From: an uncultured Desulfovibrio sp. | GTDB taxonomy: Bacteria; Desulfobacterota; Desulfovibrionia; Desulfovibrionales; Desulfovibrionaceae | DNA length: 32,853 bases | Reading direction: 5' to 3' | NCBI RefSeq assembly: GCF_944324525.1 | Contig: NZ_CALUWS010000033.1 | Coordinates: 1-32,853, forward strand | Part shown: positions 5,788 through 28,386 of the stretch, piece by piece | How positions within the stretch are numbered: position 1 is the first letter of the stretch | How the letters are laid out: each line of letters begins with the position of its first letter | Notes under the pieces: model-generated | The model's input: only the letters and a program-made list of their open reading frames with translations | What the model was told of the DNA's origin: nothing | Databases searched by the model: none | Made by a program: the position numbers and the translations under genes

Positions 5788-6163
5788 GGGGGGAAGGAAG
5801 GGGGCTTTTTTGCAAAAAAGCCCCCTTCCTTCCCCCCCGCACCCCCCATCCATCCCGCAAAAAACTTTGTCAGGGAGGATGGCGGGGAGGGGGTTCCCGC
5901 CAGGGCGCACCCTGACCGATGGTCCCCCGGTGAGGCGGCGTCTTCTTTTTTTGTGGCGTGGATGGCGGTTGTTGTCCGGCGGGGGGAAGGGGCTTTTTGC
6001 AAAAAAGCCCCTTCCCCCCGCACTCCCCATTCATCCCGCAAAAAACTTTGTCAGGGAGGATGAAGGGGAGGGCGTTCCCGCCAGGGCGCACCCTGACCGA
6101 TGGTCCCCCGGTGAGGCGGAGTCTTCTTTTTTGGTAGCGCGGATGGCGGCTCATTTGTTTGTC
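5788..6163. repeat. Two tandem ~181-bp repeats, each headed by a long palindrome
   Basis: Two near-identical stretches (about 5841-5970 and 6021-6150) share CATCCCGCAAAAAACTTTG, TTCCCGCCAGGGCGCACC and CTGACCGATGGTCCCCCGGT at a period of about 181 bases. Each is preceded by a G/C-run inverted repeat centred on TTTTTGCAAAAA: 5788-5837 and 5981-6019, with arms such as GGAAGGGGGCTTTTTT and its complement. Open frames that cross this block have no recognisable protein features and are shadows. The block lies downstream of nadE and upstream of the glpX promoter, so one role could be transcription termination on either strand. Confidence 0.85.
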
Positions 6164-6256
6164 ATGCCGCCGGGGGACTGCCGGACGAGGGATGCCTTGG
6201 GTGGAGCGGCGTCCTGTCATCGTTCCCGGCAAGAGTTTTTGAAGGGGAAAGGGGGC

Positions 6257-6304
6257 GCGGGGGAAAGGGGGGACTTTTTGCAAAAAGTCCCCCCTTTCCC
6301 CCGC
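6257..6304. terminator. 48-bp perfect palindrome, probable nadE terminator
   Basis: The palindrome is exact and centred on GC at 6280/6281: the left arm reads GCGGGGGAAAGGGGGGACTT and continues TTT; the right arm is its complement. It sits 24 bases past the nadE stop on the minus strand. The A/T tract lies in the loop and stem rather than after the stem, so Rho-independent termination is plausible but not textbook. It is a third relative of the two palindromes at 5788-6019. Confidence 0.6.
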
Positions 6305-7998: not shown

Positions 7999-8231
7999 GG
8001 GAACTATCCTTGGTCATCCTTGTTGAGCAGGGGAACAGCCGGGCGTTGCGTCCTGCGGGCGTGTTCCGGTGGGAAAAGGGAGCTGCGTTTTTAGCGCGTT
8101 TTGCCAAGGAAAAAGGCAAAGCGCGAAGCGACGGCACAGCGACGCCAGCCCAAAGCGAGCGGAAAAACGCGTTTCTTCCGCGAAACGACAGGCCGTATGG
8201 TTTGAACCTGAAAAAGCTCCAAGTGGCTCAA
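7999..8231. repeat. Spacer upstream of nadE containing an inverted copy of module F
   Basis: No gene is visible. From about 8110 to 8212 the minus strand reads CATACGGCCTGTCGTTTCGC, then a TTTTCCGCTC block and GCTGTGCCG, matching the module at 3383-3482 with scattered differences. Near 8085-8115 a CTTTTTCCTTGGCAAAACGC stretch (minus strand) resembles the ends at 12405-12432 and 28430-28450. The nadE promoter must lie in or near this block; I could not pick one out. Confidence 0.6.
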
Positions 8232-8515
8232 TACCCATTTTACAAATAATTCCATAGGATAAAAATTGTCTGTACATGTTGTTTGCGTTTGAGTGCGGGG
8301 TTGCCTCGTCTCCTTGACTCTTTCCCCGGCAAAAGCGCGCTGGGGAAGGGATGGGGGGCTTGGGGGGAAGGGGAACCCCTCCCGCGCTGGCGGCGACCGA
8401 AAGGCGGCCCAAAGGGCCGTGTCCGTTAGGCGACAAAGGAGCCTTACGGACATCGACAGCAGAGCGAGGGGTTCCCCTTCCCCCCAAATAACCAGCGAAT
8501 AGCACAACAAATCTT
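8232..8515 (-). repeat. Composite MITE/REP-like element, inverted copy with one structured unit
   Basis: Read on the minus strand this copy has the same order as the element at 28007-28371: degraded end, TTGGGGGGAAGGGGAACC-type outer arm, one 73-base structured unit, GCGCGGGAGGGGTTCCCC, the C-rich module AGCCCCCCATCCCTTCCC, CCAGCGCGCTTTTGCC, and the AT-rich end with ATTTGTAAAAT. Hairpin 1 of its unit spans 8421-8451 (GTCCGT paired with ACGGAC); hairpin 2 is GGCCC-TTT-GGGCC. The terminal repeats are no longer perfect. It lies between nadE and ubiD. Confidence 0.75.
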
Positions 8516-11640: not shown

Positions 11641-12115
11641 GGCAGGCAAACCCTTGCGTATCCTGTGTGTGGGAAAGATCAAGACCGCCTTCTGGAAGGC
11701 GGCCGCCGAACATTACGGCCAGCGTATCCGGCGCTGGCGGCCGCTGGACGTGACGGAAGTGCGCGACGGGGACGCTTCCCTGCCCGTGCCGCGCCGCAAC
11801 GAGCAGGAGGGCAAACGTCTGCTGGAAGCGCTGACCCCGCAGGACATCCCCCTCATCCTCGACGAGCGCGGCGCGAGCCTGACCTCGCCGCAGTTCGCGT
11901 CCCTGCTGCAGGACCTCGACCGCCAGGCCGCCGGGCGGCCCTGTTTCATCATCGGCGGGCCCTTCGGGCTGGATGAACGCATCCGCGCCGCGGGTCGCCG
12001 CACCCTCTGCCTCGGCCCCATGACCCTGCCGCACGAGCTGGCCCGCGTCCTGCTGCTGGAACAGCTCTACCGGGCGGAATGCATCGCCCGCAATATCCCC
12101 TATCATCACGAATGA
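11639..12115 (+). CDS. rlmH: 23S rRNA (pseudouridine1915-N3)-methyltransferase
   Basis: The enzyme methylates pseudouridine 1915 in helix 69 of 23S rRNA on assembled 70S ribosomes, using SAM bound in a SPOUT knot. The 158-residue product matches RlmH in length and in its signatures: ILCVGKIK at the N-terminus, IPLILDERG, FIIGGPFGLDERI, and the knot and C-terminus LGPMTLPHELARVLLLEQLY ending in IPYHHE. The ATG at 11639 has a GAGGGAG site five bases upstream. Its start overlaps head-to-head with the yrdC-type gene. Confidence 0.96.
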   Translation: MAGKPLRILCVGKIKTAFWKAAAEHYGQRIRRWRPLDVTEVRDGDASLPVPRRNEQEGKRLLEALTPQDIPLILDERGASLTSPQFASLLQDLDRQAAGRPCFIIGGPFGLDERIRAAGRRTLCLGPMTLPHELARVLLLEQLYRAECIARNIPYHHE

Positions 12116-12139
12116 GTCGGAAGGCCGGGGTGAGAATTT

Positions 12140-12570
12140 TGTTGGGGGGAAGGGGGGCCCCTCCGCTCTGCTGTCGATGCCTGTAAGGCCTTACGGCCTA
12201 ACAGGCACGGCCCTGCGGGCCGCCTTTCGGTCGCGCTCTGCTGTCGATGCCTGTAAGGCCTTACGGCCTAACAGGCACGGCCCTGCGGGCCGCCTTTCGG
12301 TCGCGCTCTGCTGTCGATGCCCGTAGCTTCCTGCGTCATAACGGGCCCGGTCCTACTGACCGCCCACTCCAACTTTTGTCCGGACGGTGCTGTCCCGTCG
12401 TCTTTTGTTTTGCCTTTTTCAACGTCAAAACGCTCCCTGACAAAAGCGCGCTGGGGAAGGGATGGGGGGCTTGGGGGGAAGGTTTTCGGAAACGCCTTTT
12501 CTCGCTTAGCTACGAAAAGGCTGGGCCCTCCCGCGCCGGCGGAGGGGTTCCCCTTCCCCCCAAAAAATAC
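12140..12570. repeat. Composite repeat with three tandem structured units and an inverted tail
   Basis: After an outer arm (TTGGGGGGAAGGGG) come three units at a 70-base period: 12165-12234 and 12235-12304 are identical, and 12305-12374 is diverged but keeps both hairpins. Hairpin 1 spans 12179-12206, 12249-12276 and 12319-12346. After the third unit lies a module-F-like piece (12381-12432), then the C-rich tail in the opposite orientation (AAAAGCGCGCTGGGGAAGGG from 12442) and a CCTTTTCTCG...CGAAAAGG hairpin module. The block ends with GGTTCCCCTTCCCCCC before the STT3 gene stop. It fills the 473-base spacer between convergent genes. Confidence 0.85.
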
Positions 12571-12588
12571 GCTACTGCGCCAAAGCTC

Positions 12589-14898
12589 CTACAGCACCTC
12601 GTAGATGCGGGCGAAAACGTTGTCGTACACCAGCTTGAAGTAGGGGGAGAAGCGGGTGTCCTGCGGCGAGGCCAGCAGGAGCTGCACCATAAGGGAATTG
12701 TAGATGCCGCTGTCGAGCACGAGCTTTTCGCCGGTGACCCGGTTGAAGAGGCAGTGCACGTTGCGGCGGCTGTTCAGAAAGACGCTCTGCTCTTCCGGGG
12801 TGGCCTGCGGGTGGGCGTCGGCCCATTCCTGTACGTAGTCGCGGGTGACGACGCCCGTTTCGTCAAAGACGCTGATGCTGGCCGTATGGATGGGAGCCGG
12901 GCTGCCTTCGAGCTGCACGGCGCCTTCCTTGAGATTGTAGGCCAGCGCCCGCGTGACGATGGACATGGCCCCGCCTTCGCCCTCCTTGGTGCGGAAGTTC
13001 CAGCTGCCGAAATTGCTGATCCAGAAGCCCAGCCGCAGCATCTCATAACTGACGACGAGGTACTGCTTGCCGCGCGCCTCCACCAGCGGGGTGTCCGGCG
13101 AGCGCAGCTTGTCCATGAGGGCCTGTGCGGCCTCGCCGTCCAGCCCGCGGAAGACGTCGTCCGCCTCGCCGCCCTTGAGGGCCGTGTAGCGGATGAGCTG
13201 GCGGGCAAAGCGGGCATTGTCCGTGGCGAAGACCGCGGCGGGCAGGTAGAGCCACGGGCCGTTGTGCAGCGCGCCGTCGGCGATGGTGGCGCGGCGGGCG
13301 AAGTGGTGGGCCGCGTAGCCCCAGTCCCACCAGAGCCAGAGGGTGCTGTCCTTGGGGGTCACGTCCCGCGCGCGGGTCAGGGCGTCGGCATGGCGGCGGT
13401 TGATCATGGGGCCCTGGGACATGTCCTGGATGATGCCGGCAAAGGGGGCTACCAGCAGGCCGATGAGCAGGGCCGAGGTCACGAGGCCCGCCACCGCGCC
13501 GCGCAGGCTGTCCCGCAGGATGCGCTGGAGGATCCAGTAGAGCGGCAGGGTCAGGCCCACGGCCACGATGGGCGCGCCGAACATGACCATGCGTCCGCCC
13601 ATCTTGGTGCTGAGCAGGCCCAGCGCGGCCAGCGGCAGCAGGAAGAGCGCCCCCGGACGGCGGATGAGCACCCAGACGAAGCCCACGAGCCCCAGCAGGG
13701 CGGCTTCCATCCAGGGATGGAAGTAGGAAAGAAGGGCCATGAGGCTCAGGTCCTGCACTTCGGTGATGGACTGGGCCACCGAGGGGTAGACGAGCACCGT
13801 GCCGGCGGCGGTGGCGGCGGCGTCGCCCGATCGTTTGGCATAGGCGCCGAAGTGGTAGATCAGCGTGCTCAGGATGCCGCCGCCCAGCATGAGCGCGGCC
13901 ACGCCCGCCCAGAGCAGGAGCAGGACGAGCGGACGGCTGAGCCAGGCGCGCAGCGTGCGGGCCCATTCCGTGCGGGCCATGCCCGCCACCAGGATGATGG
14001 CGCAGCCCGCAAGGCCGGGCAGACCGGCCAGCGCCGGCAGGGCATAGGCCAGCGAGCCGAGCAGGAGCAGGCCGCGCCGTCCCTGCGGGGCCATGACGAG
14101 GCTCATGAAGGCCAGCAGGCCCACATTGTAGCGGATGAGATAGGGGAAGACGGAATGCCACTCCTGCGACCACCAGGAGATGAGGCCGGAGAGGGTGAGC
14201 AGGATCACCCAGCGCTTGCGCAGCGGATAGCCGAGGCGGACCTCCGGCGGGGCCTGCGAGCTCAGTATCCGGCGGGCCATGCCCCGGCCGGAGGTATGGA
14301 TGAGCCGCTTCAGCAGGGTGTGCGGCAGGAGCATGTAGCGCATGGCCCAGCAGGCCGGGGCCAGCGTCATGAGCAGGGGGAAGAAGAGAGTGACGAGGTC
14401 GGTATCGTAATAGCCCAGCAGCGTCCGGGCCAGGAAGCCGGGCGCGATGGTGGTGATGAGCCCGGCCGCCATGCCGGCCTCCATGCTGCCCAGCGCCCAG
14501 ACCCAGACGAAGACGATGAGCGCCACCAGCGTGGAGAGGATCATGGGGAACCAGAAGGCCACGGCGGCGGGATAGGTCCCCAGCAGCGAGGCCATGCCCT
14601 GGAGCATCTCGGCCATGGGATGGCCCACGGCCAGCCCGATGCCCTCGGCCCCGGCCACCCAGTGATAGGCGTCGTTGGTGGCGAGCAGCCATTCGCTGCC
14701 CAGCCGGTATTCGGGGTTCTGCCAGCAGGGCCATTCCAGCAGGCGCAGGATGAAGGCCAGCCCCACGGTCACAAGCGCCCAGATGAGGCCGCGCAGCCAG
14801 AAGCGGGCCCGCTGCCGGCTGTTCAGCGCATCGCGTACGGCTTCCGAGGCGGCAAGGCCTTCGGACAGGGGATCGGGAGAGGTCTCGATCACGGTCAT
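12589..14898 (-). CDS. STT3/PglB-like oligosaccharyltransferase
   Basis: This is a single-subunit oligosaccharyltransferase: it transfers a lipid-linked glycan to Asn in D/E/N-x-S/T-type sequons of exported proteins, working in the inner membrane with a periplasmic active site. The 769-residue product has about a dozen hydrophobic segments through residue 480, then a periplasmic domain. Key motifs: Asp76 in NDAYHW, the DxD-like YYDTD with Asp165/Asp167, and WWDWGY near residue 523, the WWDYG-type sequon-binding motif with Trp for Tyr. Bacterial N-glycosylation by PglB is known in Campylobacter and in Desulfovibrio. No glycan-assembly genes are in the window. The ATG overlaps the rsmG stop (ATGA), so the gene is probably translated from the rsmG transcript. 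Confidence 0.93.
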   Translation of the reverse strand: MTVIETSPDPLSEGLAASEAVRDALNSRQRARFWLRGLIWALVTVGLAFILRLLEWPCWQNPEYRLGSEWLLATNDAYHWVAGAEGIGLAVGHPMAEMLQGMASLLGTYPAAVAFWFPMILSTLVALIVFVWVWALGSMEAGMAAGLITTIAPGFLARTLLGYYDTDLVTLFFPLLMTLAPACWAMRYMLLPHTLLKRLIHTSGRGMARRILSSQAPPEVRLGYPLRKRWVILLTLSGLISWWSQEWHSVFPYLIRYNVGLLAFMSLVMAPQGRRGLLLLGSLAYALPALAGLPGLAGCAIILVAGMARTEWARTLRAWLSRPLVLLLLWAGVAALMLGGGILSTLIYHFGAYAKRSGDAAATAAGTVLVYPSVAQSITEVQDLSLMALLSYFHPWMEAALLGLVGFVWVLIRRPGALFLLPLAALGLLSTKMGGRMVMFGAPIVAVGLTLPLYWILQRILRDSLRGAVAGLVTSALLIGLLVAPFAGIIQDMSQGPMINRRHADALTRARDVTPKDSTLWLWWDWGYAAHHFARRATIADGALHNGPWLYLPAAVFATDNARFARQLIRYTALKGGEADDVFRGLDGEAAQALMDKLRSPDTPLVEARGKQYLVVSYEMLRLGFWISNFGSWNFRTKEGEGGAMSIVTRALAYNLKEGAVQLEGSPAPIHTASISVFDETGVVTRDYVQEWADAHPQATPEEQSVFLNSRRNVHCLFNRVTGEKLVLDSGIYNSLMVQLLLASPQDTRFSPYFKLVYDNVFARIYEVL

Positions 14899-24484: not shown

Positions 24485-24765
24485 GGCAATACTCTCCGTT
24501 TGTTTGGGGGGAAGGGGAACCTGTCGATGCCTGTAAGGCCTTACGGCCTAACGGGCACAGCCTGCGGCCGCCTTTCGGTCGCGCTCTGCTGTCGATGCTC
24601 GTAGCTTCCTACGTCGCAACGAGCACGGCCCTGCGGGCCGCCTTTCGGTCGCCGCCGGCGCGGGAGGGCCCAGCCTTTTTCGTAGCGAAGCGCGAAAAGG
24701 CGTTCCCGTGACCTTCCCCCCAAGCCCCCCCAACGCTTCCCCAGCGCGCTTTTATCAGGGCCTGT
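24485..24765 (+). repeat. Composite repeat with two structured units
   Basis: An outer arm (TTTGGGGGGAAGGGGAACC) leads directly into a first unit that lacks its GCTCTG start (24521-24582; hairpin 1 at 24529-24556, GCCTGT with ACGGGC) and a full unit (24583-24652; hairpin 1 at 24597-24624, GCTCGT with ACGAGC). Then come the CGAAGCGCGAAAAGG hairpin module and the C-rich tail ending in CCAGCGCGCTTTTATC. The element starts at the stop of the ABC ATPase gene and ends about 55 bases before the MerR start. The AT-rich end seen at 28320-28371 is missing. Confidence 0.8.
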
Positions 24766-24819
24766 GGCTGGGGCTCTGGCGGTTCCTTTTGCCACCCCTT
24801 CAGCCGTTTGGACGCTGCC

Positions 24820-27998: not shown

Positions 27999-28006
27999 GC
28001 TGACTA

Positions 28007-28371
28007 GGGCCTGTTAACACTATTTGCTGTCTGTTTGGGGGGAGGGGACCCCCTCGCTCTGCTGTCGATGCCTGTAAGGCCTTACGGCCTAACAGGCACG
28101 GCCCTGCGGCCGCCTTTCGGTCGCGCTCTGCTGTCGATGCCCGTAAGGCTCCTGCGTCGCCTAACGGGCACGGCCTACGGCCGCCTTTCGGTCGCCGCCG
28201 GCGCGGGAGAGGTTCCCCTTCCCCCCAAGCCCGCCATCCCTTCCCCAGCGCGCTTTTGCCAAAGGAAGATACGGGGAACGAGACGACCCCACCCCCAAAG
28301 GCAAGCGGAGTGTGTACGGTCTATTTGTTTTATCTGTTGAAATTATTTGTAAAATTAGTGTTAACAGGCCC
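28007..28371 (+). mobile_element. MITE-like element: 16-bp perfect terminal inverted repeats, TA duplication, two structured units
   Basis: GGGCCTGTTAACACTA at 28007-28022 is the exact reverse complement of TAGTGTTAACAGGCCC at 28356-28371, and TA flanks both ends (28005-28006, 28372-28373). The 365-base interior has no credible gene. In order it contains an outer G-run arm, two structured units (hairpin 1 at 28070-28097 and 28139-28169), GCCGGCGCGGGAGAGGTTCC, the C-rich module, CCAGCGCGCTTTTGCC and an AT-rich end. It is the most complete member of the family seen at 1-147, 8232-8515, 12140-12570 and 24485-24765. The TIR and TA duplication suggest mobilisation by an IS5- or IS630-type transposase encoded elsewhere. 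Confidence 0.8.
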
Positions 28372-28386
28372 TAAGGCGTTTTATCT

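Follow-up and report, generated by a model that had tools for sequence, protein, structure and literature searches.

The repeat units of about 70 nt in the window (by which we mean the whole stretch of DNA that was analysed, 32,853 nucleotides) belong to a real and widespread family of structured DNA repeats of Desulfovibrio-type bacteria, from the gut and elsewhere, which in the genome that the window comes from (the own genome, G000; 2,905,649 bases in 93 contigs) is carried by MITEs of the IS5 type. On balance we favour the reading that the unit is a small non-coding selfish DNA module, conserved as a single-strand fold and putatively moved or excised by an enzyme that reads this fold. New here are a three-armed unit that covaries, the fact that it spans genera and its presence outside MITEs; our search of the open-licence literature found no description of the repeat.

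The initial annotation of the window had proposed eight units of ~70 bases, and all eight were recovered, with coordinates that proved correct to within a few bases. The head of the unit, GCTCTGCTGTCGATG, has seven exact copies, six on the plus strand (at 12165, 12235, 12305, 24583, 28056 and 28125) and one on the minus strand (8451-8465). With up to three mismatches there are nine matches in the window, a number that none of 100 shuffles got to. The eight units found by the covariance model are six full and two truncated ones:

8393..8465, minus strand: full unit, stem-1 allele GTCCGT/ACGGAC, TTT loop (head match and covariance model)
12165..12234, plus strand: full unit, allele GCCTGT/ACAGGC (head match and covariance model)
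12235..12304, plus strand: full unit in tandem, a copy identical to 12165-12234 (head match and covariance model)
12305..12363, plus strand: truncated third unit, GCCCGT/ACGGGC, hairpin 2 CGGTC/GACCG (covariance model)
24517..24582, plus strand: unit with truncated head, wobble form GCCTGT/ACGGGC (covariance model, 62 bits)
24583..24652, plus strand: full unit, allele GCTCGT/ACGAGC (head match and covariance model)
28056..28124, plus strand: full unit, allele GCCTGT/ACAGGC (head match and covariance model)
28125..28195, plus strand: full unit, allele GCCCGT/ACGGGC (head match and covariance model)

The four stem-1 variants and the wobble form described before, the A-A mismatch, and the CGGTC/GACCG form of hairpin 2 could all be read directly in these units. 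The covariance-model match to the third unit runs over 12305-12387 (44.6 bits), with the last third of the unit replaced by foreign sequence. Just past this truncated unit there is a terminator-like hairpin with a T-rich tail (12382-12403, plus strand; three overlapping sites as compared with 0.8 expected).

We folded four window units as single-stranded DNA, two of them on both strands, giving six folds. Five of the six consist of three hairpins on a CGA/TCG closing stem, with z from -2.7 to -5.0 (12165-12234, and 8393-8465 and 28125-28195 on both strands); no fold as good was found among 200 shuffles for four of these, and two out of 200 were as good for 28125-28195 on the minus strand. The two units folded on either strand (8393-8465 and 28125-28195) give alike folds. 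The GCTCGT-type unit at 24583 takes another fold that barely beats its shuffles (z -2.3; four out of 200 as good). Hairpin 1 is preceded by TGTCGA, the CGA of which pairs with the end of the unit.

Covariation was measured on an alignment of 97 matches (84 distinct) from 75 sources chosen by hand among loci L001-L348 plus the window, with a structure that we named ourselves; nearly all of these covariance-model matches are 60-86 nt long. 93.5% of the 1677 cells are paired and both-sided changes occur at 17 of the 22 pairs, whereas none of 500 shuffles attains any of five measures, and sliding the structure along the alignment gives 22-40% paired cells and 4-9 pairs with a both-sided change. 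The model that built the alignment included hairpin 1 but neither hairpin 2 (96.3% paired) nor the closing stem (96.4%), so these two figures owe nothing to fitting. Pairing is weak in the inner extension of hairpin 1 (58.5%). The stem-1 pair at columns 15/72 occurs as four pair types, for which several separate double changes are needed (kinship of the rows being uncorrected). In the own genome, 136 units were parsed from 196 candidate heads (up to three mismatches), of which 32 with at most two mismatches and 28 others were dropped as truncated, chimeric or chance matches; a perfect six-pair stem 1 is found in 113 of the 136 (at least two of which are chimeras), and the four common stem-1 alleles show single-pair differences. 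The A·A mismatch is kept in 320 out of 346 units, and five have A·T instead. The compensatory base changes noticed in both hairpins of the window units are real and reach across species and genera: covariation did not vanish in a larger alignment (17/22 pairs, 0/500 shuffles). The view of the unit as a structured element is supported.

Nor is the unit restricted to one strain, the other outcome that would have spoken against it. Exact heads number 152 in the own genome, 93 of them forward and 59 reverse, against none for the reversed pattern, and the exact head is present in four of 61 neighbourhood genomes, the own genome counted. A covariance model built from 44 units has matches in 20 of the 61 genomes of the genus; with completeness of at least 90% and contamination of at most 5% required, the count is 17 of 44. 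Searched through the order, the model finds the family in 22 of 199 genomes and three of 43 genera, all of the family Desulfovibrionaceae; these counts are lower bounds because of the strict filters. A gapped 25-base pattern, searched in assembled contigs, occurs in at least 112 stretches, and all 112 loci listed are titled Desulfovibrio (including D. piger ATCC 29098), but as the pattern is that of a single allele, it could miss other genera. The pattern is also present in one viral contig; a phage collection gave no match to a 201-base prophage stretch of G006, and a plasmid collection gave none to 140 bases of the window. Tandem copy number is one to four in the own genome and eight in G201, where the array (L324, G201:C1:745353-745934) has seven units with identical score at a 73-nt spacing. 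In another genus of the family (g21, L326-L348) the units are diverged and 66-71 nt long, some of them in inverted pairs (L336) or in tandem (L337, L340), and the covariance model probably misses many of the copies in this genus.

The initial annotation overlooked the larger elements of which the units form the inner part: in the copies that we read in the own genome, a G/C-rich hairpin carries them at its tip, and complete copies lie in an IS5-type MITE. In the window, the following parts of such elements are recognisable:

8230..8489, minus strand: element remains around the 8393 unit, with G/C-rich arms and right part recognisable (inverted repeats)
12138..12164, plus strand: G-rich left arm of the hairpin frame (inverted repeat)
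12435..12567, minus strand: second copy of the frame, inverted, without units (inverted repeats)
24490..24773, plus strand: frame enclosing the 24517 and 24583 units (repeats)
28005..28373, plus strand: complete MITE, 369 nt, with terminal repeats GGGCCTGTTAACAC (terminal repeats and TA duplication)
28005-28006 and 28372-28373: TA at the two ends of this MITE
28007-28020 and 28358-28371: its terminal repeats GGGCCTGTTAACAC

The complete MITE folds with z -5.4 (none of 100 shuffles is as good), and terminal repeats are not recognisable at the three other sites of the window, the remains at 8230-8489 and the frame at 24490-24773 among them. Complete elements start with TA-GGGCCTGTTAACAC and finish in its reverse plus TA; we found 22 of them in 825,279 bases of sequence (some of it overlapping), ranging from unit-free ones (C3:55967-56194 and C6:12241-12471) up to one with four units (C82:72-633), although the units were counted on one strand and so some elements counted as 0 do contain units. 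Both unit-free elements are nested at the TA of a unit's GCC-TA-AC: the insertion at C6:12241-12471 has a clean TA on either side, and the one at C3:55967-56194 has an altered left end. In some elements of the own genome (e.g. L017, L020 and L028) the TAG of the MITE left end seems to start at the stop codon of the preceding gene, so that the insertion keeps the stop.

An 827-bp element in a sister species (contig C1 of G079) has the same ends bar one base at each, and encodes DUF4096 and DDE_Tnp_1 frames, with the transposase in two overlapping frames. This transposase is nearest to the NCBIfam IS5 model NF033580, its halves scoring 105.4 and 101.9, just under the cut-off of 110. The MITE at 28005-28373 thus shares its terminal repeats with an autonomous IS and has a short target duplication (TA), both as in the IS5 family (NF033580), but the MITEs of the own genome differ from IS5-family IS elements in carrying G/C-rich arms and units in place of the gene. 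A possible group for them within this family is IS427. The own genome yielded no autonomous partner: it has two IS5-type genes, with 40% and 33% identity, both within other terminal repeats, and as the smallest contig examined was of 2,500 bases, collapsed IS copies may be missing. Two IS5-type elements of about 0.83 kb, L422 (contig C19) and L423 (contig C45), have the ends GGAGCTGTTTCTAAAAA and GGCTCAGGACTCATTA; each lies less than 1 kb from units, and L423 has an internal stop. IS630/Tc1-mariner was considered as the partner of a MITE that duplicates TA, but a DDE_3 search of the own genome gave zero matches and IS5-type elements were found instead. G079 also has a 149-bp MITE (L410) with the same terminal repeats and no unit inside, and many such end pairs.

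Units are found without the MITE as well. Counts of units and of terminal-repeat matches (at most two mismatches) are 33 and 0 in G006, 29 and 0 in G074, 29 and 1 in G081, 9 and 0 in G007, and 8 and 0 in G062; conversely, G028, G070 and G013 have 20, 13 and 7 terminal-repeat matches without any unit. A looser search (5% shuffle threshold, with a crude unit finder) detected left-end traces of the MITE beside units at three of 17 sites in G006, one of 35 in G081 and one of 13 in genus g21, and no terminal-repeat remnant at any of seven G074, six G062 and four low-copy sites. Some of the G006 copies are therefore decayed MITEs, while most sites are traceless. In these species the units lie in related or different hairpin frames. 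One copy has no frame at all and is found near tRNA-Ser, -Ala and -Pro genes in a region that, by reading of its surroundings, is a prophage. A prophage-like region with a single unit is common to two genomes of the D. piger group (L005/L131 in G006 and L132 in G081), and such a region is a possible vehicle for the unit between species. Units also occur in genes: in G036 the beginning of ligA (DNA ligase) includes a unit that is translated in frame, and in G025 a Mu gemA-like gene has one at its end. Units without MITE ends also occur in other genera. Finally, of 20 loci taken for a comparison between G006 and D. piger ATCC 29098, 13 could be aligned, and one of these (L352) shows a clear single-unit difference: without the unit the locus forms an almost perfect hairpin, and with it one arm is longer by 70 bases; the alignment shows no target duplication. 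This difference may be a gain or a loss of the unit. At L353 and L366 the orthologous difference exceeds the unit, and at L362 and L364 the unit is common to both genomes. With copies that lack MITE ends, copies in a prophage and in genes, and one single-unit difference, the unit appears to be a DNA module in its own right.

In the reading we favour, the conserved property of the unit would be the fold of a single DNA strand, i.e. the CGA/TCG closing stem with three hairpins, the first with the A·A mismatch. The unit would multiply as selfish DNA in Desulfovibrionaceae: because complete copies are MITEs with IS5-type ends, each move of the MITE by an IS5-type transposase copies the unit too, and the unit also expands in tandem. 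It may in addition be moved or excised on its own, now or formerly, by a putative enzyme that reads the folded strand; the A·A mismatch could then be a recognition feature, by analogy with E. coli REPs, and the need for recognition would be what keeps the pairing. In E. coli, cleavage by TnpA-REP needs a mismatch in the stem (PMC8266576, available text), and from this parallel we infer that a protein may read the fold of the unit. The source of the kept pairing could alternatively be mutation (template switching) rather than recognition. A bolder claim, that we are dealing with a novel type of miniature mobile DNA, three-armed as a single strand and ~70 nt long, whose enzyme is neither a RAYT nor an IS5 transposase and which uses MITEs as vehicles and invades MITEs, prophages and genes family-wide, appears somewhat doubtful to us.

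One may ask whether the unit is a plain passenger minisatellite instead, i.e. an internal tandem repeat of an IS5-type MITE that was copied along with it, was expanded by slippage and has no mobility or recognition of its own. The elements of the own genome do hold none to four tandem units, left-end traces of the MITE remain at three of the 17 G006 sites, and the BrickBuilt MITE of P. gingivalis, with IS5-like terminal repeats, is described as containing a tandem minisatellite (PMC4596501, available text). We nevertheless consider this explanation unlikely, as units are frequent where terminal repeats are lacking (29 in G074, nine in G007 and eight in G062) and terminal repeats occur without units (G028 and G070), no remnant was seen at seven G074, six G062 and four low-copy sites, units without MITE ends are present in other genera as well as in genes and a prophage, and one orthologous locus differs by a single unit; covariation, moreover, is left unexplained by a minisatellite alone. 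Covariation itself might be of mutational origin: template switching during replication, which copies one arm onto the other, would let the pairing persist without function. Such switching can create and repair perfect stems (PMC8794818, in the part available), and intermediates of both kinds (G·T and A·C) are seen among our units. Arm copying should repair the A·A mismatch too, however, yet A·A stands in 320 and A·T in only five of the 346 units; single pairs, not whole arms, distinguish the four common stem-1 alleles in the own genome, and the architecture persists across genera, so that we give maintenance by mutation only a small chance.

It is also hardly probable that the unit is a structured RNA, transcribed and acting as an attenuator, a stabiliser or a small RNA, with selection on the RNA keeping the stems, and we do not favour an RNA gene. 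Strong compensatory change would fit such an RNA, and so would the genomic location: none of 40 unit clusters overlaps a gene in the 60 stretches of the own genome (0.76 Mb) where genes were predicted with a simple codon model (coding fraction 0.81), and for 21 of the 40 no gene was predicted on one of the two sides, for instance where a stretch ends. But an RNA strand under selection is expected to tolerate G·U far better than A·C, whereas G·T and A·C are about equal here (44 and 40 across both stems): among the stem-1 cells of 346 distinct units, 2345 are Watson-Crick, 30 are G·T, 26 are A·C and 21 are others, and the corresponding numbers for hairpin 2 in 313 units are 1682, 14, 14 and six. 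The counted units were those with at least 10 of 14 in stem 1, which favours paired stems and not G·T over A·C. Decay of dead copies could make the two equal as well, so the counts argue for DNA and are no proof of it. Other observations against an RNA are the alike folds on both strands in the two window units tried and the mixed orientation of the 11 clusters between tandem genes (six in the orientation of the genes and five opposite). Rfam has no match in the window at gathering thresholds, and at 12130-12600 gives six matches only, all of them far under gathering and at chance level (E 0.49 to 3.7); ARAGORN found no tRNA or tmRNA genes in the window. The region 12100-12600 contains no promoter-like site, and its terminator-like site falls on no unit.

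The relation to REP units and RAYT transposases that had been suggested for the unit is not supported. The single Y1 transposase of the own genome is an IS200 one (151.6 bits with the IS200 NCBIfam model, cut-off 55; 33 bits with the RAYT model, cut-off 80), and the RAYT or IS200-like gene flanked by units that one might look for is not seen at this locus, whose 3.4 kb have one head-like match (three mismatches) with no unit behind it and no tail match. Among relatives that carry units, six (G020, G067, G072, G081, G062 and G007) lack a Y1 match; Y1 matches are present in others (G006, G079, G022, G074, G029 and G065). REPs have an unpaired GTAG/CGTC tag before a palindrome of 20-40 nt, and the unit has ~70 nt and three hairpins. 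We therefore see next to no prospect for a REP-type element of a RAYT since lost from these genomes, which the mismatch-bearing hairpins needed by E. coli TnpA-REP (PMC8266576, available text) and the high intergenic copy number would otherwise suggest: no RAYT is found in the own genome, six unit-bearing relatives have no Y1 match, and the unit is about twice as long as a REP, with three hairpins and no GTAG tag. Clustering of 520 ORFs near units (a crude analysis, with genomes partly labelled) gave no candidate gene for a mobilising enzyme, the top clusters seeming to be repeat-derived. Insertion into hairpin arms, which the frames and loci L138 and L142 had suggested, was dropped as a general rule: two of 36 isolated sites reached p<0.05, about chance, both with the site in the 5' arm, compared with none of 36 on the mirror side. 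GCCTAAC of the unit resembles the R'' box of integron attC sites, but is lost in units of the GCTTCC type.

Several known systems resemble this family in part. BrickBuilt of P. gingivalis has spacerless tandem repeats in an intergenic MITE with terminal repeats like those of the IS5 family, and as a tandem repeat carried by a MITE it is a precedent; its repeat, however, is 23 nt long, whereas the Desulfovibrio unit is ~70 nt, has a covarying three-armed fold, is also found outside the MITE and spans genera (PMC4596501, as far as its available text goes). REP/BIME units with their RAYT are high-copy intergenic palindromic DNA as well, occurring in arrays and, in E. coli, with a conserved stem mismatch (PMC8266576, PMC3733652 and PMC2817692, in the parts available); unlike them, the Desulfovibrio unit has no RAYT and no GTAG end, is ~70 nt with three hairpins, and forms head-to-tail arrays. 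CGTC-tagged REPs share with our units the absence of a dedicated transposase, but are 20-40 bp palindromic repeats with a CGTC tag, occurring mostly as head-to-head dimers and mostly in alpha-Proteobacteria; the main text of that survey has no occurrence of 'desulfo' (PMC3733652, available text).

For in-frame repeats inside genes the system to compare with is the Rickettsia palindromic elements (RPE): some of our units are likewise in frame within genes (ligA), but the placed clusters of the own genome are intergenic (0/40 in a gene). Strong base-pair covariation without sign of an RNA gene is a warning for RNA-discovery pipelines, and a covarying DNA repeat points to a protein that reads folded DNA. 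The family is also a case of nested parasitism, with a small repeat inside transposable elements and yet also found without them. D. piger, a culturable gut bacterium, is where the units can be tested. Several contigs of the own genome (C1, C6, C26, C37, C41 and C42) start or end in a unit, and the repeats seem to break assemblies. Elsewhere in the window, GGGGCTTTTTGCAAAAAAGCCCC-like palindromes occur several times at 5802-6304, along with a direct repeat of 141 nt whose two copies (5828-5968 and 6009-6149) are 92% identical.
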